Assembly: GCA_025716815.1 (NCBI GenBank)
Contig: JAIXMN010000032.1
Location: forward strand, 302,423 to 366,422
Source of the DNA: Dichotomocladium elegans
Lineage: Eukaryota; Mucoromycota; Mucoromycetes; Mucorales; Lichtheimiaceae
Direction: 5' to 3'
Length of the DNA: 64,000 nucleotides
The translations under genes and the position numbers were made by a program. Of this stretch, positions 1-64,000 are shown piece by piece (the stretch's first letter is position 1; each line of letters opens with the position of its first letter). Under the pieces are notes generated by a model. It did not search any database. It had not been told where the DNA came from and worked only from the letters and a program-made list of their open reading frames with translations.

Positions 1-1005
1 TTCCCCAGCGAAAGGATACAGACATTCGGATGAAAGGAGCCCGGATCAAGCGCAATTACATAGCGTACACTGACCAAGACAAGGTCAGATTTTTCAAACG
101 GATGTTTGTGAAGATCTTGAGTGCATCAGCTGCTAGGAATCCATGTTCGTTCAGCCCAGCGATGGGTATTACAGTACGGAAAGGACCTGACAGCATTTTT
201 AAGAAACGTAGAGGCAGAGGTCGTTCACGTATTCTAAACGAAGACCATAAGAGTGCTATTATAGAATGGGTTAATGAGAATCCGTCAATTGTCCTAGAGC
301 AGCTGATAAAGCAACTGCTCCAGAGATGTGAGGGTCTCAAGGTATCCAAAACAACGCTCCAGAGATTTATGAAGAACGAATGCAACTTGTCATTGAAAAT
401 GACTCGGTTTCAGCCTGTAGACAGGAATAGCGATGCAAATGTCCAGGAACGCCTTGACTGGGTGCGCAGATGGGACATGTCCGACATCGACTTTAGAAAA
501 AACTGCGTTTTTCTTGATGAGTCTGGATTTCGTATTAGTATAAAACGCAGCATGCATTGTCCAAGAAAGGATCCCCTGCAGTGGTCACAATACCAAAGAC
601 AAGAGCAAAGACAATCGCAATCTTGGGAGTAATTTCAGCATAAGCCATCATTAAATGTAGCTTGAGACTTCTGCAACCACCATCCAAGAAAAGAGAGAGG
701 GCATGTCCATCTGAAGTTGCGAGCAGAGGGACTGTAACTGAACATTATCTCAACTTTTTTAAAGCTACAATGGACGAGATGGATAAGTATGAACATATGA
801 AGGGGCCATTCTTCAATAACGGATAATGCACCTATCCATAAGGCTGAGGATATCTCTACATACATTGAGTGTCGAGGATATCGATGCGTTTATCTTCCAC
901 GATACTCGCCCGAACTCAATCCGATTCTGCAGCTTTGGTCAGTTGTCAAGAGCAAAGTAAAAGGCAATAGCCTACCCTTGTTTCCATTCTGCAATATTCT
1001 AATAT
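1..1005 (+). pseudogene. Decayed Tc1/mariner (IS630-like) transposase, copy A
   Basis: An open stretch from about 30 to 632 translates into a mariner-type transposase: a basic linker (KKRRGRGRSRIL), a second helix-turn-helix region, the QPVDRNSD block before the catalytic domain, and the first catalytic Asp in FLDESGF (around 520-530). After about 560 the frame breaks. The second Asp region is recognisable near 820-850 (TDNAPIHKAEDI) and the end of the catalytic core near 890-960 (YSPELNP...LWSVVKSKVK). The third acidic residue is lost: the expected IEQFW reads ILQLW. The 5' end lies outside the window. It is closely related to the copy at 5,400-6,640, in the same orientation. Frameshifts and the lost Glu mean it cannot make an active enzyme. 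Confidence 0.85.
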
Positions 1006-3189: not shown

Positions 3190-3412
3190 ATCTCCTTTTG
3201 TCCTGGTAGAGAGCAACAGTGAAGCAGAAATGACCGTGTGTAATACCCCAACGATGGTTCCACAGCTAGCTCTATCGGCAGCCATTCCGAAGCGGTGATT
3301 GAATCCGACATCCTCATGACCATTACTCCTTTTGGAACGGTTATCTGCTCGCATTCACGCGGTTTCGTTTTTCGCTTCCGTATTACGTACTTCATTCTAC
3401 GAAAAAAGAAAC
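3190..3412. other. Spacer (loop) of palindrome 1
   Basis: This is 223 bp of unique sequence between the two arms. Short frames cross it from the left arm (3,095-3,298, plus) and into the right arm (3,295-3,534, plus), but neither shows a recognisable domain. It would form the loop of any hairpin transcript. Confidence 0.8.
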
Positions 3413-5112
3413 TGACCTTCATCGATGATGAAGCGATTTTTTGCGTTGGAGTAAATTTCTTGTGCACCGTGATAAATGGGACGATTGTATTGAGGATAAT
3501 GGGACATGCTTGGAAGTTTTCAGCGGCGGCGTGAGAACGAGTCAGGTAGAAAAATGGCTAGGCCAGTACTGTTAAACCAATGACATTCGTTAATAAAGCG
3601 CACATGCCTATTTTTTCACCGGACCGCACACTTCTTCTTCACTTCTCGTTTACTTCCACAGTCTATAATGATAATGCAGCAGTAATCGCTTGGTCCTTTG
3701 CCGCAATCAGAGCGGCTGAAGCAATATACTCTTTCTCTCTGCTATCCATGACAGATATTATCAAGACCAGATCCAAAATAAGCACCTTCTTGGCTCGGCC
3801 GATATTGACAAGCCTAAAGACGCAGCAGCCGTCTTATCATCTGGAAACAAGACCCTCCTCTTCTCAGAAACAAGGCCATCTTCTCGGTGGGAAGCAAGAC
3901 TCTCTCTCTCCTGCTTTTATAGCAGCACTGCACTCAAGCGGCCTACTCTTCTCTTTATCGAGTGCCACATGTGAGGCTCTTTGGACGCAGTCAACGAGTA
4001 GCTGTATACCTGTTGGGCGCCAAACCGCAAGCCACCGGCTAGACGCTTGTCGTTGCAGCAGGTCCCTACAGTGAAAGTCCTGCTATCAGCCAGGTTCCTC
4101 TCATGTCTGGGATCGCCACGTCATATTAGATCCCAACCACTGCCTGCCGTCTATGCTTCCATTTCAAAGTAAGCACCTCTTCACTGTCTGTTACGGACAA
4201 GTCTAACTCCCCCTGTTCTAGAACCAAAGATATTTCCTCCTTCAATCAAGACTCTCCTCTTCTCGGAAACAAGGCCATCGGCGGGAAGCAAGACTCTCTC
4301 TCTCCTGCTTTTATAGCAGTACTGCACTCAAGCGGCCTACTCTTCTCTTTATCGAGTGCCACATGTGAGGCTCTTTGGACGCAGTCAACGAGTAGCTGTA
4401 TACCTGTTGGGCGCCAAACCGCAAGCCACCGGCTAGACGCTTGTCGTTGCAGCAGGTCCCTACAGTGAAAGTCCTGCTCTCAGCCAGGTTCCTTTCATGT
4501 CTGGGATCGCCACGTCATATTAGATCCCAACCACTGCCTGCCGTCTATGCTTCCATTTCAAAGTAAGCACCTCTTCACTGTCTGTTATGGACAATACTGA
4601 CTCCTCCTGTACTAGAACCAAAGATATTTCCTCCTTCATCCAAGACCCTCCTCTTTTCAGAAACAAGGCCATCTTCTCTGCGGGGGCAAGGCTTTCTCTC
4701 TCCTGCTTTTATAGCAGTACTGCACTCAAGCGGCCTACTCTTCTCTTTATTGAGTGCCACATGTGAGGCTCTTTGGACGCAGTCAACGAGTAGCTGTATA
4801 CATGTTGGGCTGCGAACCGCAAGCCACCGGCTGGACGCTTGTCGTGGCAGCAGATAGCTGTAGTGAAGTCCTGCTATCAGCAGATTCCTTTCATATATCG
4901 GATCCCCATTTCGTATTAGTTCCGGTCATCGGCAATCGCACTCCGCCACTTGCATGGCCAACTTCTATTGTTTTATGTTAATGTATTAATAAACCAAACG
5001 CTCTAATAGAATTTTCTCAGCTTGATATTCGCGGATGCATGTGCATAAATGGTAGAAACCAGGCGGTTAGCATGTTGAATTTCACTTTTTACTCTCTCGA
5101 TACCGTGTTAAA
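3413..5112 (-). repeat. Right arm of palindrome 1
   Basis: This is the inverted copy of 1,490-3,189. The tandem unit appears three times in reverse orientation, with TTTTATA (TATAAAA on the minus strand) at 3,915-3,921, 4,309-4,315 and 4,707-4,713. The mirror ORFs (3,580-4,074 plus; 4,575-4,760 minus) are identical in translation to those of the left arm, so the arms are nearly identical. The outermost unit has diverged slightly (around 4,800-4,870). Confidence 0.92.
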
Positions 5113-5400: not shown

Positions 5401-6640
5401 ATGGGCAACCTATTTTCTAAGAAAATGGCCAAGGCCATATCGTTGATGAGCGTGGCTGTCTTGAACCTACGGACTATGCCATTGATGAGGAAATGTACTC
5501 ACTTCAATCCGTTTGTTCTCACACTGAATATCTGCGTAGCATATCGTGCAGAGATAACCCTGAGCTTACTTCCGCACATATTCCCCAGCGAAGGATACAG
5601 ACATTCGGATGAAAGAAATTGGAGATCAAGCGCTGTTACACAGCATACGCTGACCAAGACAAGATCAGATTTTTCAAACGGATGTTTGAGAAGATCTTGA
5701 GTGCATCGGCTGCTAAGACTCCATATATTCGTTAAGCCCAGCGAGGGGCATTACAGTACGAGAAGGACCCTGACAGCATCTTTAAGAAAGCTAACGCGGG
5801 AGGGGTCGTTCGCGTGTTCTCAATGAAGAGCATAAGCGCATTGTTTTAGAATACGTTGATGAAGACCCATTCATTGTCCTAGAGTAGCTGCTCCAACGAT
5901 TTGAGGGTCACAAGCATCTAAAACGACGCTCCATCGATTTATGAAAATTTATGCAACTTGTCATTAAAAATGGTTCGGTTTCAGCCTATAGACAGAAATA
6001 GTGCTGCGAAGATCCAAGAGCGCCTTGACTGAGGACGCAGATGGGATAGGACCGACATCGACTTCGAAAATCTGGGGTTTTCTTTGATGTGTCTGGATTC
6101 CATACTAATATGAAGCGCAGCATGGCATAGTCCAAGAAAGGGACTCCTGCCGTAGTCACAGTGCCGAAAATAAGAGCAAAAACAAGTACCATCTTGGGAG
6201 CAATCTCAGCATCAGGCGTCATTCAATGTAGCTTGAGACTCCCACAGCCACCAATGAAGAAAAGAAGAGGGCAGGTCAATCTAAAGTTGCGAGCAGAGGA
6301 ACTGGAACTGTATATCATCACAGCTTTCTTAAGGCAACAATGGACGAGATGGATAAGCATCAACGTATGAAGGGCCATTATTCGGTAATGAATAATACAC
6401 CTGTCCATACGGCTCAGGATATCTCTGCGTACATCGAGTCTCGGGGATATCGAAATGCTTATCTTCCACCATACTCGCCTGAACTCAATTCTATTGAGGA
6501 GTTTTGGTCAGTGGTCAAGGGCAAAGTTAAATGAAATAGGTTCTTGGAAAGCGAGACGTTGATAACACAGATCTGCGAGGCATCCAAGCTTAAAGCTGAG
6601 CGATTTCGAAGGTTTCGTTTCTCATTCTCATATGTGATTA
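5401..6640 (+). pseudogene. Decayed Tc1/mariner transposase, copy B
   Basis: It is related to copy A from 5,581 onward (CCCCAGCGAAGGATACAGAC). Here the upstream part is also present, with DNPEL-like residues around 5,560. The helix-turn-helix region (around 5,690) and the first catalytic Asp (around 6,080-6,100) are frame-shifted. The C-terminal half is open from 6,340 to 6,534 and contains the second catalytic region (HYSVMNNTPVHTAQDI) with Asn in place of the usual Asp, then YSPELNSIEEFW with the third acidic residue kept. A tail resembling ESETLITQICEAS follows to about 6,600. Several frameshifts and the D-to-N change make it inactive. Copies A and B flank palindrome 1 in direct orientation. 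Confidence 0.85.
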
Positions 6641-47135: not shown

Positions 47136-49852
47136 CATCTTTCGCCGTATATGCGACATTTGTTTTGACCTCGCGCGTAAAGATATCTGGGCAATACCCG
47201 ACTTCTATTTTTGTGACCTTGCGACTTCAGAACGGCTAGGATACGACTTCAATTTTAGAAAACGGTGAATAACAAAAGCCCTGCTGATTACCGAAGGATC
47301 TGAATCCGACAAAGATGATTTACAGCTTTTCTTAGTATCAAAAGTCATATATCACCCAAGCAATCGTTTGCCTGAGTTGTTAAACCAAATGGCGCCCGAA
47401 TTAGAAATGGAAAGCCTCATACTGAAAAGAAGTCGTCAAATTCATCTCTTAGAAATACGTCAGCCTTTTTAATCCTATCAATCCTTTTGCTTTTTTTATA
47501 CATATATACATATTCATCATTCTAAAATGAGTAATCAGATTCGTCTGAATCTACTAACAGATATTGTCGTTGATGAGAAAGATACTCTTTGTTCTCCACA
47601 TTAAATACCCACGTAGACTATCTTTCAATGATAACCCTGAGCTTGCTGCTACGCGAAAAGAAACGGACTGTCTGATGAAAAGAGCCGGAGGCTCAAGCAT
47701 AGCTAAACAGGAATTGGGAAGCAGACAGAATGTAACTGGGCCCATTTATCAAGAGTGCTCTACTTTGATGTCAGAAACCATGTTATCCGAGTTATTGGAT
47801 GTACCGCTGCAAGGCAGAAAGACAGGATATAGCTGTCCAACATATCCGCGCCGACAATGATTTGCTCTTCTCTGGGACGTGTTTGCAAAAAAAAACACAA
47901 TAGGCTTTGTCTGCGGGTATAGCGCGATCATGGCAAGGAATGGTGTTCGATGAGGGTCAGTATGAGAACTGGATCAAGGGCTAGTTGAGAAGTGCTTTCC
48001 GCTGATCCAAGCGACAAAAAATCAGACATACAGTTCATCCAAGAATATGTTGACGAATGACTTTTCACCGCAATAAAATAGCTTGGTTTAGAGATACTAC
48101 GAATGGCAATTAACAAGGGTTCTTCAAAAGGGTACCAAAAAAGTAGCGATATAACAGAGCTTCCAGGGGATAGCAGAAAATGTCATTAGATCGCACGGCC
48201 AGGATAGAACTAGGAAAATGCTACTGCTCAACGATGATGCCTTCAATTTTAAAATCTCGAAGCGACGATGATGTATATACCGGTTATGGCATGCTAGCAA
48301 TACGGTCAAAAGCCCTGTCTTCTATCTGTATATATTCCGCAATGTGCGCGATGAAGGCATGTACCGCGAGAACTTGTATTGTACATTCAACTGCGGTAGC
48401 ATCCTCCATTCTTCAACATCAGACAGCAAGTAGGTCAAATAATTTTGAGTTAACAGAAAGCGGGCGAACTTGATAGTTGCATAAAAACCGGAATATTTCG
48501 AAGCTCTTGGTCCATCTACATACCACGAATCACGACATATGACCTATGAATAATACTTCCTTGCTCTCGATCAAGCTGAATATGTCGATGCAAAATAGTC
48601 AGATGCGAAATTTGGAAGGGTGTGTAGCGGTTTTCCGGTTGATAATCCCCTTCTGTCGATTTGCTTATGAAATTCATATCATGGTAACAACATATCACTA
48701 AAGTCAGCACGATTCCGGAGAGCTGTTCCTATACTGTTCCATCGCTTTCACTTATTAATACGGGGAGATCATTGTTCTATGGGGTTTCGATTTATTATAT
48801 AGTCGATACAGTTGCTGCAGTATTGAGGCGCTGAGTTGGGGTGATTTTAGCCTACATGGCGCCGTCGACGTCCAGTTTGGTGAGTTGAGACAGTTGATTT
48901 AACACATCCAATGGGCTATCCTTACAAGAATTCAATGGATGCGCAGTATTCATTTGGTTCGTTTCGATACATACACATAGATACCCCTCCATACTGAAGC
49001 ATCGCGTGTGTCTCGTTCTTTTGTGTTTGGTTGCTTCTGAAAGAGGGTGACGACGATAAATCCTGTTTATAAAGCTGAGTTACCGCCTAAAGTTCTGTGA
49101 AACAGCTTTGTCACCAAGAATGCATCGCCCGGATTCGCTAGATGACAAGGCTTCGAGATGCTCCCTTTCAGGCAGATTTTGGCACAGTCTAGATTGTCTA
49201 TAATCTCTGCCAAATCCTTAAGTCTAAAAAAGGTCAATTATATGGCACACCTCGACCAAAAAATGGTTATAGCTTTGTTGCTGTCACATAACGAAAATGA
49301 CTACCACTTTATTTGTGCTTGGATATGACCAGTTTCTCTTAAGGCTGAATACCCCTTGTACGCATTCAGAGACAGAAGATCATTTTGTGATCTTTGGAGG
49401 GGATGCCTCTGAATGCTTATCGACGGACCGTGAGATTGAAACACAAGGTATCACATGAACTAACCTACCCAAAAAGCCAACAACAAACCGTCTTCAAAAT
49501 ACCGTACTACATTATAGTCATTTCAGAAAGTGAAGTCGCTAATATTGAGTTTGATGTTGTGCCAAAAAAAAAACCTATCCAACAACAATGTTCGACTGAT
49601 TCAAAAGTAAAGACAGTTTTGGCGTGTCTTTTTCCTATTTACTGTATATTTTTTTTGGAGACATTCAGGATGGATATGCAATATTTTATGAAGATGGGCA
49701 AGGACACGTTTTGATGAGAACGGAGTGAGCTCACGGATCCTGTTGGTGACGAAGAGTTATTTGCTAGCGAAACAATAAGTTCTCGTATTCAATTCCTAGC
49801 AGATAAACCTCCCGAGATATCTCATAATCCTGTAATGTGTGCCGTTGCGGAT
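47136..49852. other. Gene-poor region with possible mariner 5' remnant
   Basis: Around 47,120-47,260 repeated GCGACAT/ACGACTT motifs recall 7,160-7,220. Around 47,600-47,700 a plus frame contains DNPELAATRKET, reminiscent of the DNPEL segment upstream of the copy B transposase, so it may be a decayed 5' end. Open frames at 48,180-48,473 and 49,394-49,714 lack motifs. I see no gene. Confidence 0.35.
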
Positions 49853-50860
49853 TAGAGGAGCAGTGAGGACGTTTATATGGAGCAATGCAACAAGCACCCC
49901 TATACAATTTATTCTGCTGAAGATAAAACTCGATTTTTTCAGCAAATGCTTGAATGCTTCTGCAGCTGCGAGACAATTGGGCATTCATGTCCGAGCAGCA
50001 CAGAGATGGATTAACCGTTATTACGAGGACCCTGAAAGCATCATGGAGAAGAAGAAAAAGTCAGGTCGGCGTCATATTCTTGGTGAGGACCATAAGCAAT
50101 TTGTTTTAAAATATATTGGTTAGAATCCTTCTGCTCTGTAACTGAAGTGGCAGAAAGTTTAACGCAATTCACAGATCTTAATGTTTCTCGTAGCACCACT
50201 TATAACTTCATGACAACTGGGTGCAATCTATTCATTAAGCAGGCACAATTTCAGCCTGTGGAAAGAAACTGCGAAGAAAAGATTTGGCAAAGGTACGATT
50301 GGGTTCAAAGGTGGCAGCAAACTGACATGGGTTTCATTACAAATTGTCGCTTTCTTGATGAACCAGCCCTTCATATCAATTTGAAACAAGGCATGGCGTG
50401 GTCAAAGAAGGGAACTCCTGCGGTAATTACAGAACCCGTAACAAAAGCGAATGCAACATCAAGTTTAAGTGCCATATTTGCCACTGGCTTGATTAATGTT
50501 AGTTTGAGAGTTCCAAAGCGTATCAAAAAGAGAAAGCTTGGACGTGCAAATGATGGTTACAGCATAGGAACAGTAACAGGATATTATTTGAGCTTTTTAA
50601 AGGCGACACTTGACGAAACGCGCACGTATGCGGAAATGAAGGGACACTGTCTTGTCATGGATAATATATTCATTCTCGAGGATATCGCTACGTACATCTT
50701 CCTCCGTATTCTCCTGAACTTGATCCAATTGAGCAGTTCTGCTCTGTTGTTAAGAGTAAGATGAAGCGAAATAGACTATTGGAAAAAGAAACATTAATGA
50801 CTAGGATCAGTGAAGCATGCGGTAGCTTGTATTGAAATGATTTAAAAGGCTTTGTTTAAC
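49853..50860 (+). pseudogene. Mariner transposase at the outer end of the left arm, copy F
   Basis: From 49,920 a plus frame gives LNASAAARQLGIHVRAAQRWINRYYEDPESIMEKKKKSGRR, the helix-turn-helix and linker. A stop after LKYIG (50,123) separates it from 50,147-50,764, which carries the second DNA-binding part (LNVSRSTTYNFM), QPVERNCEEK, first Asp in CRFLDEPALHINLKQGMAWSKKGTPAV, and second Asp in GHCLVMDN. A small deletion near 50,680 then shifts the frame; the third region is intact in another frame (YVHLPPYSPELDPIEQF, around 50,690-50,740). Two disruptions only, so this is the youngest-looking copy with its twin in the other arm. Confidence 0.85.
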
Positions 50861-51129
50861 ATTCTGTTGAATATTTTGTTGAGAGCCTCGACTAGGAAAG
50901 ATTGTAGTATCTCTCTACCGACTTACAGGACGCCAGATTTCGGTGACTTTTAGCACTGATACAGTAAAAAAAAAGGGGGGATACTTCAAGTGTGTAGGAC
51001 ATGTGGAATAAGATGGCAGGAGACAGTCAAAAAAAAATGATGAGACTCAATAAAGGTGATTTATTCGAAAAGAAGGAGGGAGAGAGAGAAAAAAGACATC
51101 TGCAAGTTGTGGATTCATTGAAATTGTGA

Positions 51130-51260
51130 GTTGATAGGCGAGCCTGAAAAGAGGTGTGAAATCCCATTTTGGTGACTTGACGAACAGTGTGTCTGCATTT
51201 TCGTGACTTGGCGAACGGTGTGTCTGCATTTTACTGAGTTGGCGAACCCCGAAGGTGGAC
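51130..51260. repeat. Diverged minisatellite units in reverse orientation (left arm)
   Basis: Three degenerate units of the type GAACRGTGTGTCTGCATTTT...GAGTTGGCGAAC occur here. They are the reverse complement of the main array unit (GTTCGTTAACTCAATAAAAT), so the 51.3-52.7 kb segment with the IGYARKS ORF is bounded by inverted members of the same repeat family. The mirror copies are at about 61,985-62,115. Confidence 0.65.
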
Positions 51261-51762
51261 CCACCCTTTTTTCTTCTTCCTTAAGCTTTTTTCGTCACGG
51301 TCTGAATGCACAGACTTAGCTTTTCTCAGGCAGCTTGCCTAGCCCTTGGTTTCAAACAAACAAAACAACATCGGCTTCAAGCAGTCGCTAGACTATGAGA
51401 GTTGGATTTGGTTCCTATACATGTTACTGGCGCCAACCCACTGTCGCCGTCCCTGGTGTCAAAAACGATATATCAACTATGCAGACGATAGTAAGTGTGC
51501 TTGTAGTTTCATTAATAGGCTTGGGGCTGACATTAATGTATTCAGATGACCAAAGTGGCGGCTCCTCATCCTCTTACCCATGCATGACATTATCGACCGT
51601 TGTTCAAATGAAAGCCTGATCCCTTCATCTCCGTCCGGTGAAATGCTTGCAAATCAATTCAAAGGTAAAAGCAGCTTTTTTCCATGTAGTTTTCGTAAGT
51701 TGTAACGTTTTTGCGTAGTCACCATTTCAAAATAGGAAGCCCTGGCACATTTTAAGCAAATC

Positions 51763-52540
51763 ATGCATGTAAACCGATCCTTGAATGCTACCCTATTCGA
51801 GCGCATCTTCATGACGTCAGTTGAACAAAAATCGATATTGGAAAAATGCTTCGGACCAGTCACGAACTCCACGAAGCAGGTTGAGGGTTGGATCAATGGT
51901 TGTCATGCGTGGGGTGAACGCACAGCAATGAGGTCAAATGGCAAAAATTGGAAGGCCGATCGCAGTGGGTGTTACTGGACAAAATATTTGGGGATCAATG
52001 TTGCCGAAGACCTGGTCAAATACGAGCAACACTGCCGGCGCCACCCGATGACAACAATTGGATATGCAAGGAAATCCATAGGCAAAGAACGTATTAGCAC
52101 TAGATGCAAGCTTCTGAGCGAAATGGTTCGTCGAAGCAGATTGAGGGTTGGACCAATAGCCGTCATGCGTGGGGTGAACGTGCAGCAATGAGGTCAAATG
52201 GCAAAAATTGGAAGGCCGATCGCAGTGGGTGTTGCTGGACAAATATTTGGGAATCAATGTTGCCGAAGATCTGGTCAAATACGAGCAACACTGCCGCCAC
52301 CACCCGATGACCACAATTGGATATGCAAGGAAATCCATAGGCAAAGAACGTATTAGCATTAGATGCAACCCTCTGAGCGAAATGGTCCATCGTCTGCGCA
52401 CGAGAAGCTTATGCACCAAAGTCTACGAATCACCATATTGCGACGCAAATCAACCGATGGAATCTCGTGACAGCAAAGGAGACTATAAACAGCATTTGGC
52501 ATTGATCAAGAATTGTGACGGGGATATGACAAGTACATGA
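51763..52540 (+). pseudogene. ORF with IGYARKS motif and internal tandem duplication (left arm)
   Basis: The reading frame runs GWINGCHAWGERTAMRSNGK, NWKADRSGCYWTKYLGINVAEDLVKYE, HPMTTIGYARKSIGKERISTR and LLSEMV. The ~257-bp segment is then repeated (51,875-52,131 and 52,132-52,388); the second copy has lost one A in its AAAA run, so the two lie in different frames. After copy 2 the protein continues RSLCTKVYESPYCDANQ, ESRDSKGDYKQ and LIKNCDGDMTST, stop at 52,540. IGYARKS recalls the N-terminal Y-x-R-x-S of serine recombinases, but catalytic-domain context is not convincing. Substitutions between arms in 52,257-52,312 are mostly synonymous, which argues that this was a real protein. Function unknown. 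Confidence 0.5.
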
Positions 52541-52908
52541 ATGACGTTTTTATTCAATGCATAGATACTCATTCCTTTTTTTAGATTTAGTGCAATTGCT
52601 TAAAAACAAAGTTTAAGCCTATCCTTTTGGCGGCCATCGACTTTGGCGGGTTAAGTGCAGAGCCAAATGATATCCGTGCAGACGCACTGTTCGTTAACTC
52701 AATAAAATGCAGACACTGTAACAGTACAGGAACTGTTGTGCGAGTACTTATGAAGAACGTCTGATATACAGTGTGGAGGAAGCGCGAACGCGACGAGAAG
52801 AACGATGATTATAATAATATCGTCGCCAGAGATGCGGTATTGATCGTGATCGTTATCCTTGTAGTAACTTGGTTGTCTGTCGATAGTGACCCGTCACTGT
52901 AGCTACTG
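52541..52908. other. Segment between IGYARKS ORF and minisatellite (left arm)
   Basis: About 370 bp with one isolated minisatellite unit (52,678-52,720) and no recognisable gene. Its mirror is at about 60,337-60,704. Confidence 0.5.
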
Positions 52909-54522
52909 CTACAGACGCACTGTTCGTTAACTCAATGAAATGCGGACGCCCTCTGTTCGTTAACTCAATAAAATGCGGACGCACTGTTCGTTAACTCAAT
53001 AAATGCAGCACCTGTTCGTTAACTCAATAAATGCGCACGCCCTCTGTTCGTTAACTCAATAAAATGCGGACGCCCTCTGTTCGTTAACTCAATAAAATGC
53101 GGACGCACTGTTCGTTAACTCAATGAAATGCGGACGCACTGTTCGTTAACTCAATAAAATGCAGTCACACTGTTCGTTAACTCAATAAATGCGGACGCCT
53201 GTTCGTTAACTCAATAAAATGCGGACGCACTGTTCGTTAACTCAATAAAATGCGGACGCACTGTTCGTTAACTCAATAAAATGCGGACGCCCTCTGTTCG
53301 TTAACTCAATAAAATGCGGACGCACTGTTCGTTAACTCAATAAATGCGGACGCCCTCTGTTCGTTAACTCAATAAAATGCGGACGCACTGTTCGTTAACT
53401 CAATAAAATGCGGACGCCTGTTCGTTAACTCAATAAAATGCGGACGCCCTCTGTTCGTTAACTCAATAAATGCGGACGCACTGTTCGTTAACTCAATAAA
53501 ATGCAGTCACACTGTTCGTTAACTCAATGAAATGCGGACGCACTGTTCGTTAACTCAATAAAATGCGGACGCACTGTTCGTTAACTCAATAAAATGCGGA
53601 CGCACTGTTCGTTAACTCAATAAAATGCGGACGCCCTCTGTTCGTTAACTCAATAAAATGCGGACGCACTGTTCGTTAACTCAATGAAATGCGGACGCCC
53701 TCTGTTCGTTAACTCAATAAAATGCGGACGCCCTCTGTTCGTTAACTCAATAAAATGCGGACGCACTGTTCGTTAACTCAATGAAATGCGGACGCCCTCT
53801 GTTCGTTAACTCAATAAAATGCGGACGCCCTCTGTTCGTTAACTCAATAAAATGCGGACGCACTGTTCGTTAACTCAATGAAATGCGGACGCCCTCTGTT
53901 CGTTAACTCAATAAAATGCGGACGCCCTCTGTTCGTTAACTCAATAAAATGCGGACGCACTGTTCGTTAACTCAATGAAATGCGGACGCCCTCTGTTCGT
54001 TAACTCAATAAAATGCGGACGCCCTCTGTTCGTTAACTCAATAAAATGCGGACGCACTGTTCGTTAACTCAATGAAATGCGGACGCCCTCTGTTCGTTAA
54101 CTCAATAAAATGCGGACGCACTGTTCGTTAACTCCATGAAATGCGGACGCCCTCTGTTCGTTAACTCAATAAAATGCGGACGCCCTCTGTTCGTTAACTC
54201 AATAAAATGCGGACGCCCTCTGTTCGTTAACTCAATAAAATGCGCACGCCCTCTGTTCGTTAACTCAATAAAATGCGGACGCACTGTTCGTTAACTCAAT
54301 AAAATGCGGACGTCCTCTGTTCGTTAACTCAATGAAATGCGGACGTCCTCTGTTCGTTAACTCAATAAAATGCGGACGCACTGTTCGTTAACTCAATAAA
54401 ATGCGGACGCACTGTTCGTTAACTCAATAAAATGCGGACGCACTGTTCGTTAACTCAATAAAATGCGGACGCCCTCTGTTCGTTAACTCAATAAAATGCG
54501 GACGCACTGTTCGTTAACTCAA
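52909..54522 (+). repeat. Minisatellite, 31/33-bp units with 97-bp higher-order repeat (left arm)
   Basis: About 50 tandem units share the core GTTCGTTAACTCAATAAAAT and differ mainly in the link between units: GCGGACGCACT gives 31 bp and GCGGACGCCCTCT gives 33 bp; a few are shorter. From 53,666 to about 54,150 a triplet (31+33+33 = 97 bp, first unit with AATGAAATG) repeats exactly at 53,666, 53,763, 53,860, 53,957 and 54,054. Each unit contains GTTAAC, a small palindrome. The open frame through it on the minus strand (ELTNRGRPHFI repeated) is a by-product. Confidence 0.97.
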
Positions 54523-55436
54523 AATGCTAGTTGGTCTTTTCTTGTATTCAGTGCTTGGAGAAGCTCCGTTGTGCAGCACCCCCGCAATAGTCGTTGGTGG
54601 CGCTGAGGTAGTGACGGTTTAGGAAGAGAAGTGGTTTAATGCGACTGTATGACGGACCGTGGTGTATCTCCGCGTCCACGAGCACAGCATATGCTCCTTC
54701 TTCCCAGAGAGCTTCAAGGTCAGAAAGTATAAAGATAAAGCCAGACGGAGCACGCACTTTTTTGTTACAAAGGTCCGTTTATTTGAGTGTGACAAAAGGA
54801 ACCGTAAAAGAAAAGCAGCCAAACATTGTAATGGGGTAGTGGCGAGGCGTATACCCAAACCGGTATTTATTCAAGGGAAAAGAGAAGGCGAGAGGGCAAA
54901 GAAATGGCTCATCTGCAGAGAGCATCAGGAGGAAGAAGCATTGTCCTTGAAAGAGGACGTGGGAAAGAAACGGCTCGTCAAAAGACAGTGAGAAAAAAAT
55001 TTCAGGCCGTACAAGAGGGGCCTGCATTTCTTCTCTGTTCGACCATTGTTCCTACAAATCGCAATATCAAATTCAAGCGCCCGCAATGCCACTGTTCTTC
55101 AAGCCGACAGCGTCGCTGAAGCCAAGTAACCATAGTAGCAGCGCAAAGTGGGAGAAGAATATAAATGCCACGAATGGAGCGTATATTAAGAATTGCTAAA
55201 GGATTCGTGCGAAAAGTTGGTTTCAAGATTGAAGTCCTGAGCTGCACTCGTCTCGCGAACTCTCGAACGCATCTATTCCGCTTTCTGTTTTACGAAGCGC
55301 AGCATCACGAAACGACTATCACTCATTCGTGTCATTAGCCTGATGCAACCACTTCAGATTTGTTCAACCACAGTAGTGCGATCCGTGGTTTACCAACTTT
55401 CGTAACCAATCTTTCGTCAATCCTTCTGCAAGTCGC
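54523..55436. other. Inner unassigned segment of the left arm
   Basis: A plus frame at 54,659-54,991 (110 codons) is rich in Lys/Arg/Glu in its second half (KRNRKRKAAKH, EGERAKKW, EEEALSLKEDVGKKRL). Overlapping minus frames exist (54,548-54,757). I recognise no family and cannot decide which strand, if any, is coding. The mirror copy is at 58,241-58,573. The last ~200 bp before the spacer hold nothing recognisable. Confidence 0.3.
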
Positions 55437-55725
55437 ATTTACACATTGTTGGGGATTCACATCTCAGATGGCCGAATAATCTCTGTAAGAATGAACTGTG
55501 AACGCTTCATAATTCTTATTTAAAACCAAGGTCAAGTACGAAAAGATTAAGAAGGCAGAAAAGCAGCGCCGGTTTATTGAATTGGGAAAGCAAATCTAAC
55601 ATGAGCATTGCACTTTGCTGGAGAGTAATTGCTCAATACGTCAGTCATGCATCGAACAATTTCTCTTCTTTGATGCATCCAGGAATCTGCGATTTATAAG
55701 CAATAGCAAATTTTTCATTATGTAT

Positions 55726-56425
55726 TCAGCAGCATTCCAACTGATTTCTTCTTCGGGGAAGAAGGGACACGGCCGGCATTTCGATCTTAGTGAAGATAGG
55801 GGTTGCAACCTCTTCTGGTAAGATATCGAAGCCGAAGTACCACGTCTCCCGCTCCAAACTGGGCACGATAGGCAGGACTTCGTCGACGAAATCGAGGATC
55901 TGTTGTGCGGTGGTGAACCCTGAGGAGGAGCGCATGGAAGAAGTAAGTACGCCTCTACTATACATAGCATCTAGGACGCGGAGATCGGGCGTTAGTGTCG
56001 CTGGATCACTAGCGATGGGTGGCGACACTTTCGGCGATACCAGGCATGTACGGCGAGAGTTGACGGCAAAAACTGCTTCGGCAAAAAAAAAAAGCACATT
56101 ATCATCCTCCTTGAAGTCGTCCCTATCGACAACTTCATCAAAGCGAAGGAGCACGCCTTGCATCTCTTCCTCCGTCTGGCTGATGGGGAAACACCAAAAA
56201 TCGCTCGAAGGTGATCCTTGCATTTTTTTGCAGCCATTTCGGCAGCGCGATTTCCGATACCGCCTCTGTAGTTGCTTGCGAGCACGCAACCATCACGTCT
56301 TCTACGGTGCACGTGGGATAGGCATCAACATACTCAAGCACGAAACGAACGAACTTGCTGTCGAACTGCTTCGCCTTCTGGAGTTATCTTCTTTTGGGCA
56401 TTACGTTCAGACCTCTGGATGGCCT
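55726..56425 (-). pseudogene. Broken ORF of unknown family in the spacer
   Basis: Two overlapping minus-strand frames have protein-like composition on both sides of an A7 homopolymer near 56,226, suggesting a single gene with a frameshift (or an unrecognised intron). The upstream part has a regular helical pattern ending PKWLQK; the downstream part is acidic and hydrophobic (EEMQGVLLRFDEVVDRDDF, QQILDFVDEVLPIVPSLE, WYFGFDILPEEVATPIFTKIE). A stop codon precedes the first part at about 56,393. No motif matches a family I know. Confidence 0.35.
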
Positions 56426-56516
56426 GTACTGCGCGACATATGTTCTAAAAGTTGACGACGCCATATGCACGCTCTCTGTGGCACTGGCCTTGGACATGCC
56501 ATGATTGATGTGGTTA

Positions 56517-56688
56517 CAGTGGCCGCCCGTTATAGTGATACCCTCGGTTCCAGGAAATCGCAGCACTATAATGAATTATCACTATAACGAATTGGAATAA
56601 GCTCTACCTGGCAATTTTGTTCTTCATAAAGTGTATCGCTATAACGAATTATCATTATAATGAATATCACTATAACGAGCGGCCACTG
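56517..56688. mobile_element. 172-bp pogo-like MITE with TA target duplication
   Basis: The ends are CAGTGGCCGCCCGTTATAGTGATA (shown in full length at 56,517-56,540) and its inverse TATCACTATAACGAGCGGCCACTG ending at 56,688, with one mismatch. Both are flanked by TA (56,515-56,516 and 56,689-56,690). The inside repeats ATAACGAATT and CACTATAA motifs and codes for nothing. CAGTGG termini, TA duplications and imperfect internal repeats fit non-autonomous pogo/Tc1-type elements. Confidence 0.85.
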
Positions 56689-57795
56689 TATTAATAACAA
56701 CTCTCACAAGCTTTCGTCATGCTTTTGGCACACCCTCTTTTTGGTGGGTTTCTGGGTTTCGTGTTGCGCAGCTCGTTTCACACCGCTGGAACTGGACAAA
56801 ACCCCGTTCGCTTGGATGTTGGGATTGAGCTGCCTCATCTCCTCGTCCTTTACATTCACGATAAATTGTGAATGCGGTCTAACATTTCTACAGTCTAACA
56901 TTAACTTATGCTGGCTGGACACCGAGAAGGCTACATCACCGTTTACGATAGGCGTATCAACATCGTCTTATGTGCAAAGAAAAGGAAAGTGTAAACCACA
57001 AAAATATATTTCAAACTTCGTGCTCCATGTACAACAAGATCATCTTTAACCGTTTATCTTCTCGGAAAGTACGACCTTACGTCCCGAGTAGGATGTGACA
57101 TATCAGTAACTAAAGTCATTTGTTCATGTACTTTGCAGCCGTTACGCCTGTACTTTCTCAGTTTTCCATAGTTGATAGATCCGTGAAATAAATGTAGTCT
57201 TCATCGAACAAGCTTATGGTTCCCAGGATGGATAGGAATAAGCGTTGCCCCAAATCATCATACACAATCACTGCAACATCCTCGTTACCACCCCAACTCT
57301 AACACGGGTTTAACAATCGATGTTCCAAAAGTACAAATATGACTTCTCCCATCCGAATGACGTAGATACAGTACTGTTTTCCAATCTTTTCAAAGCCGGT
57401 TGAGTAAAAGTAGACAAATACTGTACTGCATTGATTAGTACGCCTGTTATGATAGAAACGCATGACTGCAGGCCGGTCAAGGTTGGTAAGGAAGACATAC
57501 GTACGTTGTCACCCTCTGAGAACCGGCTTGCCTTTTGGTATTTGCAATTAGATATTTGGAGGGCAAGGGGCAGAAGCATGGAACATAATAGCTGTAGTTC
57601 AAGTGATGTTGTAACTTCCAAATTTCATTTCCTGCCCCGTCCAGAAAAAGCCATTTGCTGTAAGACTGCGACATGAAAGGTGAGTTGTTTCTCGAGAAGT
57701 CCAAGGCTCAACTCCCAATCCTATTCCCGCGAAATGTGGACGTAAATGATCTCGATGTTCAATTATGACTGTGCCCGCCATGGGACGAAAATGAC

Positions 57796-58711
57796 GCGAC
57801 TTGCAGAAGGATTGACGAAAGATTGGTTACGAAAGTTGGTAAACCACGGATCGCACTACTGTGGTTGAACAAATCTGAAGTGGTTGCATCAGGCTAATGA
57901 CACGAATGAGTGATAGTCGTTTCGTGATGCTGCGCTTCGTAAAACAGAAAGCGGAATAGATGCGTTCGAGAGTTCGCGAGACGAGTGCAGCTCAGGACTT
58001 CAATCTTGAAACCAACTTTTCGCACGAATCCTTTAGCAATTCTTAATATACGCTCCATTCGTGGCATTTATATTCTTCTCCCACTTTGCGCTGCTACTAT
58101 GGTTACTTGGCTTCAGCGACGCTGTCGGCTTGAAGAACAGTGGCATTGCGGGCGCTTGAATTTGATATTGCGATTTGTAGGAACAATGGTCGAACAGAGA
58201 AGAAATGCAGGCCCCTCTTGTACGGCCTGAAATTTTTTTCTCACTGTCTTTTGACGAGCCGTTTCTTTCCCACGTCCTCTTTCAAGGACAATGCTTCTTC
58301 CTCCTGATGCTCTCTGCAGATGAGCCATTTCTTTGCCCTCTCGCCTTCTCTTTTCCCTTGAATAAATACCGGTTTGGGTATACGCCTCGCCACTACCCCA
58401 TTACAATGTTTGGCTGCTTTTCTTTTACGGTTCCTTTTGTCACACTCAAATAAACGGACCTTTGTAACAAAAAAGTGCGTGCTCCGTCTGGCTTTATCTT
58501 TATACTTTCTGACCTTGAAGCTCTCTGGGAAGAAGGAGCATATGCTGTGCTCGTGGACGCGGAGATACACCACGGTCCGTCATACAGTCGCATTAAACCA
58601 CTTCTCTTCCTAAACCGTCACTACCTCAGCGCCACCAACGACTATTGCGGGGGTGCTGCACAACGGAGCTTCTCCAAGCACTGAATACAAGAAAAGACCA
58701 ACTAGCATTTT
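57796..58711. other. Inner unassigned segment of the right arm
   Basis: The mirror of 54,523-55,436. The Lys/Arg-rich 110-codon frame is repeated with identical translation at 58,241-58,573 (minus). No function can be assigned. Confidence 0.3.
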
Positions 58712-60336
58712 GAGTTAACGAACAGTGCGTCCGCATTTTATTGAGTTAACGAACAGAGGGCGTCCGCATTTTATTGAGTTAACGAACAGTGCGTCCGCAT
58801 TTTATTGAGTTAACGAACAGTGCGTCCGCATTTTATTGAGTTAACGAACAGTGCGTCCGCATTTTATTGAGTTAACGAACAGAGGACGTCCGCATTTCAT
58901 TGAGTTAACGAACAGAGGACGTCCGCATTTTATTGAGTTAACGAACAGTGCGTCCGCATTTTATTGAGTTAACGAACAGAGGGCGTGCGCATTTTATTGA
59001 GTTAACGAACAGAGGGCGTCCGCATTTTATTGAGTTAACGAACAGAGGGCGTCCGCATTTTATTGAGTTAACGAACAGAGGGCGTCCGCATTTCATGGAG
59101 TTAACGAACAGTGCGTCCGCATTTTATTGAGTTAACGAACAGAGGGCGTCCGCATTTCATTGAGTTAACGAACAGTGCGTCCGCATTTTATTGAGTTAAC
59201 GAACAGAGGGCGTCCGCATTTTATTGAGTTAACGAACAGAGGGCGTCCGCATTTCATTGAGTTAACGAACAGTGCGTCCGCATTTTATTGAGTTAACGAA
59301 CAGAGGGCGTCCGCATTTTATTGAGTTAACGAACAGAGGGCGTCCGCATTTCATTGAGTTAACGAACAGTGCGTCCGCATTTTATTGAGTTAACGAACAG
59401 AGGGCGTCCGCATTTTATTGAGTTAACGAACAGAGGGCGTCCGCATTTCATTGAGTTAACGAACAGTGCGTCCGCATTTTATTGAGTTAACGAACAGAGG
59501 GCGTCCGCATTTTATTGAGTTAACGAACAGAGGGCGTCCGCATTTCATTGAGTTAACGAACAGTGCGTCCGCATTTTATTGAGTTAACGAACAGAGGGCG
59601 TCCGCATTTTATTGAGTTAACGAACAGTGCGTCCGCATTTTATTGAGTTAACGAACAGTGCGTCCGCATTTTATTGAGTTAACGAACAGTGCGTCCGCAT
59701 TTCATTGAGTTAACGAACAGTGTGACTGCATTTTATTGAGTTAACGAACAGTGCGTCCGCATTTCATTGAGTTAACGAACAGAGGGCGTCCGCATTTCAT
59801 TGAGTTAACGAACAGTGCGTCCGCATTTTATTGAGTTAACGAACAGAGGGCGTCCGCATTTTATTGAGTTAACGAACAGAGGGCGTCCGCATTTCATTGA
59901 GTTAACGAACAGTGCGTCCGCATTTTATTGAGTTAACGAACAGAGGGCGTCCGCATTTTATTGAGTTAACGAACAGTGCGTCCGCATTTTATTGAGTTAA
60001 CGAACAGTGCGTCCGCATTTTATTGAGTTAACGAACAGTGCGTCCGCATTTCATTGAGTTAACGAACAGTGTGACTGCATTTTATTGAGTTAACGAACAG
60101 TGCGTCCGCATTTCATTGAGTTAACGAACAGTGCGTCCGCATTTTATTGAGTTAACGAACAGAGGGCGTCCGCATTTTATTGAGTTAACGAACAGAGGGC
60201 GTGCGCATTTTATTGAGTTAACGAACAGAGTGCGTCCGCATTTTATTGAGTTAACGAACAGTGCGTCCGCATTTTATTGAGTTAACGAACAGAGGGCGTC
60301 CGCATTTTATTGAGTTAACGAACAGTGCGTCTGTAG
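58712..60336 (-). repeat. Minisatellite, 31/33-bp units (right arm)
   Basis: The reverse-complement array of the one at 52,909-54,522, with the same two unit lengths and the same 97-bp triplet structure in its middle. The outer part (59,600-60,300) has rearranged units compared with the left arm, for example a duplicated TGTGACTGCATTTTATTG unit at about 59,720 and 60,070. Confidence 0.97.
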
Positions 60337-60704
60337 CAGTAGCTACAGTGACGGGTCACTATCGACAGACAACCAAGTTACTACAAGGATAACGATCACG
60401 ATCAAGACCGCATCTCCGGCAACGATATTATTATAATCATCGTTCTTCTCGTCGCGTTCGCGCTTCCTCCACACTGTATATCAGACGTTCTTCATAAGTA
60501 CTCGCACAACAGTTCCTGTACTGTTACAGTGTCTGCATTTTATTGAGTTAACGAACAGTGCGTCTGCACGGATATCATTTGGCTCTGCACTTAACCCGCC
60601 AAAGTCGACGGCCGCCAAACGGATAGGCTTAAACTTTGTTTTTAAGCAATTGCACTAAATCTAAAAAAAGGAATGAGTATCTATGCATTGAATAAAAACG
60701 TCAT

Positions 60705-61482
60705 TCATGTACTTGTCATATCCCCGTCACAATTCTTGATCAATGCCAAATGCTGTTTATAGTCTCCTTTGCTGTCACGAGATTCCATCGGTTGATTTGC
60801 GTCGCAATATGGTGATTCGTAGACTTTGGTGCATAAGCTTCTCGTGCGCAGACAATGGACCATTTCGCTCAGAGGGTTGCATCTAATGCTAATACGTTCT
60901 TTGCCTATGGATTTCCTTGCATATCCAATTGTGGTCATCGGATGGTGACGACAGTGTTTCTCGTATTTGACTAGGTCATCGGCAACATTGATTCCCAAAT
61001 ATTTGTCCAGCAACACCCACTGCGATCGGCCTTCCAATTTTTGCCATTTGACCTCATTGCTGCACGTTCACCCCACGCATGACGGCTATTGGTCCAACCC
61101 TCAATCTGCTTCGACGAACCATTTCGCTCAGAAGCTTGCATCTAGTGCTGATACGTTCTTTGCCTTTGGATTTCCTTGCATATCCAATTGTTGTCATCGG
61201 GTGGCGCCGGCAGTGTTGCTCGTATTTGACCAGGTCTTCGGCAACATTGATCCCCAAATATTTTGTCCAGTAACACCCACTGCGATCGGCCTTCCAATTT
61301 TTGCCATTTGACCTCATTGCTGTGCGTTCACCCTACGCATGACAACTATTGATCCAACCCTCAACCTGCTTCGTCGAGTTCGTGACTGGTCCGAAGCATT
61401 TTTCCAATATCGATTTTTGTTCAACTGACGTCAGGAAGATGCGCTCGAATAGGGTAGCATTCAAGGATCGGTTTACATGCAT
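60705..61482 (-). pseudogene. ORF with IGYARKS motif (right arm)
   Basis: The mirror of 51,763-52,540. Open parts are 60,705-61,037 (second repeat and C-terminal part) and 61,054-61,317 (first repeat). The start has an extra change: the segment before the repeat is frame-shifted or lacks the upstream ATG. Between arms, codons for ADDLVKYEKHCRHH differ from AEDLVKYEQHCRHH mainly at third positions. Confidence 0.5.
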
Positions 61483-62399
61483 GATTTGCTTAAAATGTGC
61501 CAGGGCTTCCTATTTTGAAATGGTGACTACGCAAAAACGTTACAACTTACGAAAACTACATGGAAAAAAGCTGCTTTTACCTTTGAATTGATTTGCAAGT
61601 ATTTCACCGGACGGAGATGAAGGGATCAGGCTTTCATTTGAACAACGGTCGATAATGTCATGCATGGGTAAGAGGATGAGGAGCCGCCACTTTGGTCATC
61701 TGAATACATTAATGTCAGCCCCAAGCCTATTAATGAAACTACAAGCACACTTACTATCGTCTGCATAGTTGATATATCGTTTTTGACACCAGGGACGGCG
61801 ACAGTGGGTTGGCGCCAGTAACATGTATAGGAACCAAATCCAACTCTCATAGTCTAGCGACTGCTTGAAGCCGATGTTGTTTTGTTTGTTTGGAACCAAG
61901 GGCTAGGCAAGCTGCCTGAGAAAAGCTAAGTCTGTGCATTCAGACCGTGACGAAAAAAGCTTAAGGAAGAAGAAAAAAGGGTGGGTCCACCTTCGGGGTT
62001 CGCCAACTCAGTAAAATGCAGACACACCGTTCGCCAAGTCACGAAAATGCAGACACACTGTTCGTCAAGTCTCCAAAATGGGATTTCACACCTCTTTTCA
62101 GGCTCGCCTATCAACTCACAATTTCAATGAATCCACAACTTGCAGATGTCTTTTTTCTCTCTCTCCCTCCTTCTTTTCGAATAAATCACCTTTATTGAGT
62201 CTCATCATTTTTTTTGACTGTCTCCTGCCATCTTATTCCACATGTCCTACACACTTGAGGTATCCCCCCCTTTTTTTTACTGTATCAGTGCTAAAAGTCA
62301 CCGAAATCTGGCGTCCTGTAAGTCGGTAGAGAGATACTACAATCTTACCTAGTCGAGGCTCTCAACAAAACATTCAACAGAATGTTAAACAAAGCCTTT

Positions 62400-63357
62400 T
62401 AAATCATTTCAATACAAGCTACCGCATGCTTCACTGATTCTAGTCATTAATGTTTCTTTTTCCAATAGTCTATTTCGCTTCATCTTACTCTTAACAACAG
62501 AGCAGAACTGCTCAATTGGATTAAGTTCAGGAGAATACGGAGGAAGATGTACGTAGCGATATCCTCGAGAATGAATATATTATCCATGACAAGACAGTGT
62601 CCCTTCATTTCCGCATACGTGCGCGTTTCGTCAAGTGTCGCCTTTAAAAAGCTCAAATAATATCCTGTTACTGTTCCTATGCTGTAACCATCATTTGCAC
62701 GTCCAAGCTTTCTCTTTTTGATACGCTTTGGAACTCTCAAACTAACATTAATCAAGCCAGTGGCAAATATGGCACTTAAACTTGATGTTGCATTCGCTTT
62801 TGTTACGAGTTCTATAATTACCGCAGGAGTTCCCTTCTTTGACCACGCCATGCCTTGTTTCAAATTGATATGAAAGGCTGGTTCATCAAGAAAGCGACAA
62901 TTTGAACCCAATCGTACCTTCGCCGAATCTTTTCTTCGCAGTTTCTTTCTACAGGCTGAAATTGTGCCTGCTTAATGGATAGATTGCATCCAGTTGTCAT
63001 GAAGTTATAAGTGGTGCTACGAGAAACATTAAGATCTGTGAATTGCGTTAAACTTTCTGCCACTTCAGTTACAGAGCAGAAGGATTCTAACCAATATATT
63101 TTAAAACAAATTGCTTATGGTCCTCACCAAGAATATGACGCCGACCTGACTTTTTCTTCTTCTCCATGATGCTTTCAGAGTCCTCGTAATAGCGGTTAAT
63201 CCATCTCTGTGCTGCTCGGACATGAATGCCCAATTGTCTCGCAGCTGCAGAAGCATTCAAGCATTTGCTGAAAAAATCGAGTTTTATCTTCGTCAGAATA
63301 AACTGTATAGAGGCGCTTGTTGCATTGCTCCATACAAACGTCCTCACTGCTCCTCTA
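62400..63357 (-). pseudogene. Mariner transposase at the outer end of the right arm, copy G
   Basis: The twin of copy F. Frames are 63,087-63,357 (helix-turn-helix, linker), 62,860-63,063 (second DNA-binding part) and 62,480-62,911 (catalytic core). It has an additional frameshift: a deletion near 62,905 removes WVQRWQQTDMGFI-type residues that copy F still has. The same LKYIG stop and the same C-terminal shift are shared, so both copies descend from one already damaged gene duplicated with the arm. Confidence 0.85.
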
Positions 63358-64000
63358 CATATTAGACTACTGGGACACTGATGACCTTCTTGAAGCTCTT
63401 GCCCGCACTCCATTAGGTATTAGCCCCAGAATCGATGCATTCCGTATGAGCTCGTTTGTCATGTGTGCATGTCATCAGAGTATGCCCAATCCCTTTTTCT
63501 GCAGGTTCTTAACAACGCCCTCACCTTGCACCGGCTCCCCGCCTCTTGGCAACCATCGGTTTTCATCCTTCTCCATAAATCGGGGGGATCGCACCTTCCT
63601 CAAGAACTGGAGGCCTATATCCCTCATTTGCGCAGATGCCAAGCTTTTCACCCGTTTGCTCGCATCCCGTTTCAACCCGACCCTGCAAACAGTTATCGGT
63701 TCGCATCAAACTGGGTTCATGGCTGACCGGTTCATTGCCGACAATGGTCTGACAGCTCGCCTTGCAATGGAATTCGCCAAATACCATCGTTAGACGAGGT
63801 TGGGGTTCTCCTTGACCAAGAAAAGGCGTACGATCGAGTACATCCTCAGTATCTACGAGCCTGATTAAGACACTTTGGCTTGCCAGAGCCCCTGGTATCA
63901 TGTCTCTCACACTTGATTTTCGATACCACTCTCTGTATTAACCTCAATGGATACCTCTCGGCCCCTTGTCGACAGACGCGAGGCCTCTGACAAGGCGATC
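63358..64000 (+). pseudogene. LINE reverse transcriptase fragment, broken, runs off the window
   Basis: Plus-strand frames give an RT domain of the non-LTR type: LTLHRLPASWQPSVFILLHKSG in one frame, then DRTFLKNWRPISLICADAKLFTRLLASRFNP and IGSHQTGFMADRFIADN in another, then LLDQEKAYDRVHPQYLRA (motif A region, around 63,800-63,860) after a stop. CINLNGYLSAP and RREASDKAI-like sequence lies at the edge where the G-Q-G motif would be expected. At least two frameshifts. Same broad group as the 3' fragment at 34,140-35,300. The right arm of the giant palindrome ends directly against it. Confidence 0.8.

Follow-up and report, generated by a model that had tools for sequence, protein, structure and literature searches.

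We analyzed a window of 64,000 nucleotides from contig JAIXMN010000032.1 of Dichotomocladium elegans (Mucorales), covering positions 302,423 to 366,422. Toward its right end, the window contains two inverted arms separated by a spacer of 2,359 bp (Table 1). From position 50340 inward, BLAST aligns the arms with 99.06% identity over 5,110 columns, and their outermost piece (49853-50309) matches its mirror side at 97%. A total of 100 columns differ in the arm alignment, 52 of them substitutions, and several indels are present. No difference is found in the innermost 1,969 bp of the arms (53468-55436), where ~28 would be expected. The similarity of the arms is thus far beyond chance, and both BLAST and alignment bear out an earlier, sequence-only reading of two nearly identical arms of ~5.6 kb around a 2.36-kb spacer. 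Both arms represent copies of a transposon family, which we call T, and each contains a transposase relic, an accessory ORF, and a minisatellite; the content proposed before (transposase relic, ORF, and a tandem array of ~1.6 kb) is indeed mirrored in both arms. The minisatellites are composed of 31-33-bp units with ~50 copies per array, and the left accessory ORF relic carries an internal tandem duplication of 259 bp (51872-52386). The transposase relic matches the Pfam HTH and DDE_3 models below cut-off (E=0.13 for DDE_3). A nucleoside-transporter gene is located ~4 kb away in the left flank, and Rfam at gathering thresholds returned no match over 49400-64000.

Table 1. Features in and around the inverted arms, in window coordinates
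Feature	Position	Strand	Basis or remark
TA dinucleotide flanking left terminus, Tc1-type target site	49513..49514	.	position matches TA followed by CAGTC in L018, C37, C57, L012, L015
Left TIR of T element	49515..49536	+	4 mismatches to 25-base L018 pattern
Outermost left-arm segment, 338 bp, no right-side counterpart	49515..49852	+	relatives' homology
IS630/Tc1-type transposase relic, left arm	49659..50906	+	77% protein identity to L018 transposase, residues 53-243
Left inverted arm	49853..55436	+	5,584 bp; self-BLAST and alignment
Three degenerate 31-bp units, opposite orientation to main array	51165..51247	-	
Accessory ORF relic, left arm, GYARKS motif	51736..52540	+	
~200-bp dispersed repeat lodged in array	52717..52912	+	dozens of genome matches, 84-96%
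31/33-bp minisatellite array, left	52914..54522	+	tandem-repeat analysis
Nested second-family element	54526..58706	+	termini elsewhere TA next to CAGGTCTTTTC; lacks outer ~370 bp on each side
Spacer, unique interior of nested element	55437..57795	+	colinear with multi-copy relatives
176-bp dispersed repeat, TA at both ends, inserted in spacer	56515..56690	+	
Right inverted arm	57796..63357	-	5,562 bp; truncated at 63357
31/33-bp minisatellite array, right	58710..60331	-	tandem-repeat analysis
Accessory ORF relic, right arm	60705..61332	-	
Right-arm counterpart of 51165..51247, three degenerate 31-bp units	61998..62080	+	
IS630/Tc1-type transposase relic, right arm, 5' truncated, ~30-bp deletion	62338..63357	-	alignment
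Right flank, reverse-transcriptase fragment, non-LTR-like element	63358..64000	+	RVT_1 below cut-off; element type assigned by eye; not part of T

The T family and the outer ends of the window copy

By its sequence features, T is an IS630/Tc1-type DD34E transposon family of Mucorales. A 3.25-kb element (L018) has perfect 25-bp terminal inverted repeats (TIRs) and TA flanks, which indicates that T is a TA-target element, and TA is also found outside both ends in three further copies (C31, C57, and C13). The transposases of L018 and L062 match DDE_3 with E=3.6e-28 and E=5.5e-30, respectively, and in both the second aspartate and the glutamate (residues picked by eye) are 34 residues apart. No P-type transposase model occurs among the matches listed for T transposases, which are DDE_3 and HTH instead. 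A search for an empty site of T insertions found none.

The sequence-only reading had placed the ends of a single element at 49853 and 63357. In 11 of 11 relatives compared, the left arm remains colinear across 49853 to 49504-49684, that is, 169-349 bp further out, and in the same 11 the right-arm homology stops between 63309 and 63360. These positions are therefore ruled out as transposon termini. Rather than ending at 49853, the left element reaches a Tc1-type terminus at 49515, with a TIR whose first base is changed from C to T relative to its relatives. The right end of the window copy is a truncation, which leaves it without 338 bp including the TIR; the family TIR was found at the left end only. 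Target duplications at both outer ends had been suggested as a check and are absent, with neither a TIR nor a TA at the right end. The TA dinucleotides beside the two ends first drawn do not represent such a duplication, as the left one lies inside T. Insertion into a LINE-like element was likewise discarded: the fragment was seen on the right side only, its sole other match begins 97 bp away, and the left flank contains the nucleoside-transporter gene. With its right terminus missing, the window copy should now be immobile.

A nested element and recurrent inverted duplications

The central 4.2 kb, formed by the inner arm portions and the spacer, represent a separate element family rather than a part of T. 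This family is dispersed, TA-flanked, and has long inverted repeats of its own; one copy (C59) measures 4,940 bp, with terminal repeats of 1,402 columns. The spacer is mostly 83-90% identical to its multi-copy relatives, with a few at 74-79%. Contrary to what had been envisaged, the arms and a unique loop do not form one element. In the window, the nested element is cut at the identical base on both sides, the array/nested-element junction is the same left and right, and the true tips of the family would lie ~370 bp beyond these junctions. Together, this makes two independent events unlikely. A scan allowing up to 6 mismatches found the tip of the nested element nowhere in the window, which rules out an insertion of T into one of that element's repeats.

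A sole copy in the genome had been named as an observation that would speak against a foldback element, but the outer arm is also found on contig C37, ~99% identical. The C37 copy is cut by the contig end within a DIRS-like element and could be a second palindromic copy. Over 50340-52912, roughly equal distances separate the left, right, and C37 arms, suggesting that the palindrome was formed near the last movement of its subfamily and not long after. Over its outermost 487 bp, the right arm is 97.1% identical to the left arm and 96.9% to C37, with left and C37 sharing 99.4%, and at 49896, 50232, and 50285 it still has the base found in six relatives. Simply copying the left half would not be expected to yield this pattern.

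We examined nine T inverted duplications, a set that leaves out L016 (C35:1639000-1642200), where the inverted pair spans only 162 bp at 72%, and the pair at C43:321437/330369. Both ends retain a T terminus with TA in three of them, a single end does so in four (including the window copy), and neither end in one; the remaining one (C53) faces outward. The three complete palindromes, each with TA next to the TIR at both ends, measure 18,725 bp (C57), 7,528 bp (C31), and 1,469 bp (C13). The 1,926-bp arms of C31 are 99.95% identical, each with an open transposase frame of 452 codons, and both C57 and C31 contain minisatellites within their arms. No minisatellite motif is common to the T copies, with units of 31/33, 23, 41/43, and 33 bp. 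A near-loopless, asymmetric palindrome is found on C35. Among the at least 124 transposase copies, of which 124 were listed, neighbor pairs within 20 kb are inverted in 10 cases and direct in none. Two of 13 pairs within 30 kb in the same listing are direct, however, and a further direct pair lies inside the window (1-970 and 5581-6539), outside the transposase matches listed, which weakens the argument from orientation. Some T duplications are not transposons, as several have incomplete ends and C53 faces outward. What stands of the foldback proposal is a recurrent foldback-like class with long arms, tandem repeats, and three relatives with both termini; the ends and loop proposed for this copy do not.

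The accessory ORF is predicted to encode a serine-recombinase catalytic fold. Across 48 aligned family members, the GYxRxS motif has its serine in 39 of 42 rows with a letter at that position, its arginine in 41 of 42, and its glycine and tyrosine in 41 of 41 each. The serine of this motif is catalytic in resolvases, and serine recombinases have another pair of catalytic arginines beyond the third strand (DRLxR). These arginines are absent in the accessory family, where the commonest residues are D-Y/F-A-G-L-S/T (correspondence by eye). Pfam gave no informative match for the accessory ORFs: PF00239 matched only 2 of the 48 members, both below cut-off (best E=0.032), and had no match over cut-off in the D. 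elegans genome, with the control matched in 10 of 14 genomes. A first structure model reached a pLDDT of 44.5. Profile searches of solved structures returned nothing for one query (A1) and four weak matches for another (A3), with γδ resolvase fourth (E=0.91). Only Mucorales names occur among the matches listed for the accessory gene.

Origin of the palindrome and comparison with known systems

We consider it probable that the window copy is a palindromic T derivative with extended TIRs that arose when one half was copied onto the other during repair; at one end, 338 bp are now missing. The ancestor would have been a T element that began with the TIR at 49515 and carried transposase, accessory ORF, and minisatellite, and a second long-TIR transposon may have been lodged in or beside its array. 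During repair of a break, the inverted repeats of the nested element could have served as annealing or fold-back point, and synthesis would have reproduced the left half on the right, yielding two mirror-image arms. The right arm may have lost its outer 338 bp with the TIR by incomplete copying or later deletion. From the features above we infer this repair copying, the order of events, homogenization of the arms, and the loss of mobility. Sister palindromes with two TIRs could be movable by the T transposase. The right end, with neither TIR nor TA, lends no support to the 13.8-kb unit ever having moved as a palindrome, and this counts against our preferred explanation.

That same asymmetry of the ends would suit a one-off chromosomal fold-back independent of transposition, in which a T relic was duplicated together with the nested element and never became mobile, and C53 and C35 demonstrate that such products occur in this genome. 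We find this possible but rather unlikely: complete, TA-flanked T palindromes exist at C31, C57, and C13, and the equal distances among the left, right, and C37 arms place formation near the last movement of the subfamily. The alternative offered by the sequence-only reading, namely that a composite locus was duplicated in inverted orientation, hence fits the origin of this copy but not a singular event, because the same family recurs. That T represents a two-enzyme transposon of eukaryotes, built along the lines of Tn3, appears doubtful; in this scenario, a serine-recombinase-like protein would act beside the Tc1-type DDE transposase on neighboring minisatellite arrays, inverting or dimerizing element halves into palindromes that persist as mobile hairpins or RNA-silencing loci. 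A serine-recombinase-fold gene tied to Tc1-type elements would be unexpected. An assembly artifact, produced by palindromic chimeric reads or by polishing that equalized the arms, is very improbable. The exact identity of the innermost 1,969 bp would agree with it, as would the C37 contig ending inside its own copy and T copies on C92, C59, and C54 located within ~2 kb of a contig end, but the arms differ by 52 substitutions and several indels, the nested element is arranged as in its dispersed relatives, and other palindromes are present with different identities. Next to no weight falls on a true giant foldback transposon ending at 49853 and 63357: TA adjoins both positions, but family homology continues past 49853 in all 11 relatives compared, and a T-type TIR is located at 49515.

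To our knowledge, the origin of long-TIR and foldback transposons is unsettled. Tc4 and Tc6 of Caenorhabditis elegans are foldback members of the Tc1 superfamily of ~1.6 kb, and we know of no minisatellites in them. We found no description of palindromic Tc1-type elements in Mucorales among the titles and abstract openings listed. The Tc1-MP1 element of Mucoraceae and Rhizopodaceae (PMC9977792) measures 1,688 bp, with 141-bp TIRs and one gene for a DD34E transposase of 434 residues. Compared by description only, it resembles T in fungal order, DD34E type, and transposase length (427 residues in C31), but no palindrome is described in the portion of the report considered. Tetris, a Drosophila foldback element (PMC4079207), likewise has long TIRs holding tandem repeats, up to 1,735 bp with ~220-bp units; its description notes no apparent coding capacity. 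In the "2 recombinant TIR" copies of Galileo (PMC3573991), TIRs are lengthened by recruiting internal sequence and direct repeats expand within them, as in the T palindromes. Galileo, however, is described as a P superfamily element with 7-bp target duplications, and its longest TIRs (~1.26 kb) are not in nearly complete copies, whereas in C31, C57, and the window the T arms span 1.9-5.6 kb and take in the transposase region. Closest in layout to C31, C57, and C13, and to the window copy save for one lost end, is Mu killer, a MuDR derivative of maize (PMC3440606), described as two partial transposase copies in inverted orientation whose TIRs both derive from the transposase end. Silencing has been shown for this plant locus, whereas T is known here from its sequence and a single TIR remains in the window copy. 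Hairpin RNA silencing T, as proposed for Mu killer, would be a likely consequence. One fungal genome contains a graded T series of short-TIR element, mini palindrome, open-frame palindrome, giants, and one-ended remnants, so that a repair-copying origin, mobility, and self-silencing of the Mu killer type can be tested directly.

Architecture and termini of the window palindrome

The sequence-only reading had described inverted arms with tandem arrays around a spacer, and our arm alignment and array count bear this out as far as that description goes. From 50340 inward the arms share 99.06% identity across 5,110 alignment columns, their outermost piece is 97% identical, and each carries arrays of 31/33-bp repeats with ~50 units. 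The outer 1,648 bp match at least 48 places in the genome (39.4 Mb, 122 contigs searched). On the left, homology passes 49853 in all 11 relatives compared, reaching 49504 to 49684; on the right, homology to the same 11 stops between 63309 and 63360. A single-copy relative on contig C68 (L018) has a perfect 25-bp TIR at each end, 3.25 kb apart, with TA outside. A TIR of this type, its first base changed, is found at 49515 in the window copy, next to a TA (49513-49514), and no second TIR was detected in the window at up to six mismatches. On contig C37 the same arm is present with its TIR in different flanking DNA. The window arm is thus an element of the T family (an IS630/Tc1-type transposon family), and the right arm lacks its outer 338 bp.

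The L018 transposase matches DDE_3 (3.6e-28), and the spacing of its residues, picked by eye, is that of DD34E. It is followed by a minisatellite and then, on the opposite strand, by an accessory ORF. The window arms contain the same parts, but here the ORF precedes the array and lies on the transposase strand, unlike in L018 and the C57 copy. The accessory ORF of the C31 copy is 100% identical to an annotated protein of Dichotomocladium elegans across two blocks, one of 71 and one of 30 residues, and the 50 bp between these look like an intron. The C31 transposase has 551 relatives in a protein search, 120 of them listed; those of the listed matches whose names were read are Mucorales.

Recurrence of T-type duplications

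We read the window structure as a stranded palindromic Tc1-type element. It is one of a recurrent series, which makes its origin testable. TIRs are found at both ends in 3/9 T-type duplications examined, at one end in 4/9 and at neither in 1/9, and one of the nine faces outward (see table); L016 was left out as too diverged.

Features of the window and of other contigs (C) of the same genome; "pair" marks neighbour pairs compared as DNA
Feature	Position	Length	Termini	Details
Window palindrome, left arm	49853-55436		one TIR	
Window palindrome, spacer	between the arms	2,359 bp		
Window palindrome, right arm	57796-63357			
C57 duplication (pair)	C57:1597496	18,725 bp	TIR and TA, both ends	arms 3,819 columns at 99.3%, 3,645 of them at 99.945%
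DDE-like frame, left arm only of C57 palindrome (L010)	C57:1601324-1603483			open, 720 codons; within a 2.76-kb insertion
C31 duplication (pair)	C31:604791	7,528 bp	TIR and TA, both ends	arms 1,926 bp, 99.948%; 452-codon transposase frame in each
C31 accessory ORF	L062 4447-4799			
C13 duplication		1,469 bp	TIR and TA, both ends	arms 92.5%
C43 duplication (pair)	C43:191497		one TIR	98.6%
C35 duplication (pair)	C35		one TIR	97.9%; loop ~50 bp
C36 duplication			one TIR, loose match	97.7%
C68 duplication (pair)	C68:1482797		TIR recognised at neither end	98.5%
C53 duplication (L063; pair)	C53:7800-14000		outward-facing	1,141-bp transposase fragment, 99.2%; host-like coding DNA between
DIRS-like retroelement in C37-copy minisatellite	L009 1-2042			reverse transcriptase and gag-like frames, by eye; contig end
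Nested element	window 54526-58706			matches dispersed family, mostly 80-90%, a few ~75%
Dispersed repeat	window 56515-56690	176 bp	TA-flanked	95-99% alike among copies listed
Inverted pairs of nested-repeat relatives	C40:604206-611536; C59:94811-107608; C13:61156-77552			71-79%; 7-16 kb apart
Second palindrome	window 1503-5098			arms 1.7 kb at 98.8%; spacer 203 bp; 394-bp tandem repeats
Direct transposase copies	window 1-970; 5581-6539			80% alike
TIR-like start	window 5218			

The orientation census rests on 139 protein matches among those listed, merged to 124 transposase copies. Among the matches listed, ten neighbour pairs lie within 20 kb, six inward, four outward and none direct, for which we calculate a two-sided probability of ~0.002 if orientation were random. 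This count calls for caution: within 30 kb, 2/13 pairs among the matches listed are direct, and the matches omit both the direct pair in the window and the window palindrome, whose right arm is unlisted. All six pairs compared as DNA (six of the ten) are duplications with near-identical arms.

The second palindrome in the window, flanked by the direct T-type copies, belongs to a dispersed family, with arms in plus-minus order at about ten other loci. T-type transposase relics adjoin palindromes of this family in the window, C44 and C68.

The nested centre and the age of the arms

The centre is occupied by a nested element whose family starts with TA|CAGG at 9/9 ends read. A copy on C59 measures 4,940 bp, with terminal repeats 99.79% alike over 1,402 columns and TA at each end. 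In the window copy both repeats are missing their outer ~370 bp; the cut falls on the identical base on each side, and the junction with the array is identical on both sides. It is unlikely that two cuts fell on the same base independently; probably one half served as template for the other, and the nested inverted repeats would offer a natural annealing or fold-back point for such copying. The divergent inverted pairs on C40, C59 and C13 are possibly longer versions of this family.

Between 50340 and 52912 the three arms (left, right and C37) lie at similar distances from one another (98.3-99.4%), with 16 private differences in the left and 15 in the right arm; C37 has 13 over 49853-52912. 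In 49853-50339 the left arm and C37 agree at 99.4% and the right arm stands apart (96.9-97.1%), with 12 private changes versus 2.6 expected (P ~2e-5), some of them bases common to six relatives (49896, 50232, 50285). Over 53468-55436 there are no differences in 1,969 bp versus ~28 expected at even rates. We read the palindrome as having formed near the last movement of the window subfamily and its right tip as older, or exchanged. Its centre appears recently homogenised, a pattern that consensus polishing could mimic.

Comparison with known systems

For Tc1-type elements, the portions of the literature available to our search gave no description of transposase-engulfing arms with a TIR at both ends, of palindromes of 7.5-18.7 kb, of a palindrome centred on a nested long-TIR element or of a gene with a predicted recombinase fold. 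Tc1-MP1 of Mucorales is a plain Tc1 element (PMC9977792), Tetris carries tandem repeats inside its TIRs (PMC4079207) and Galileo has TIRs lengthened through recruited internal sequence (PMC3573991). The closest plan to the window type of palindrome is that of maize Mu killer, in which both TIRs derive from the transposase end and part of the transposase is duplicated in inverted orientation (PMC3440606).
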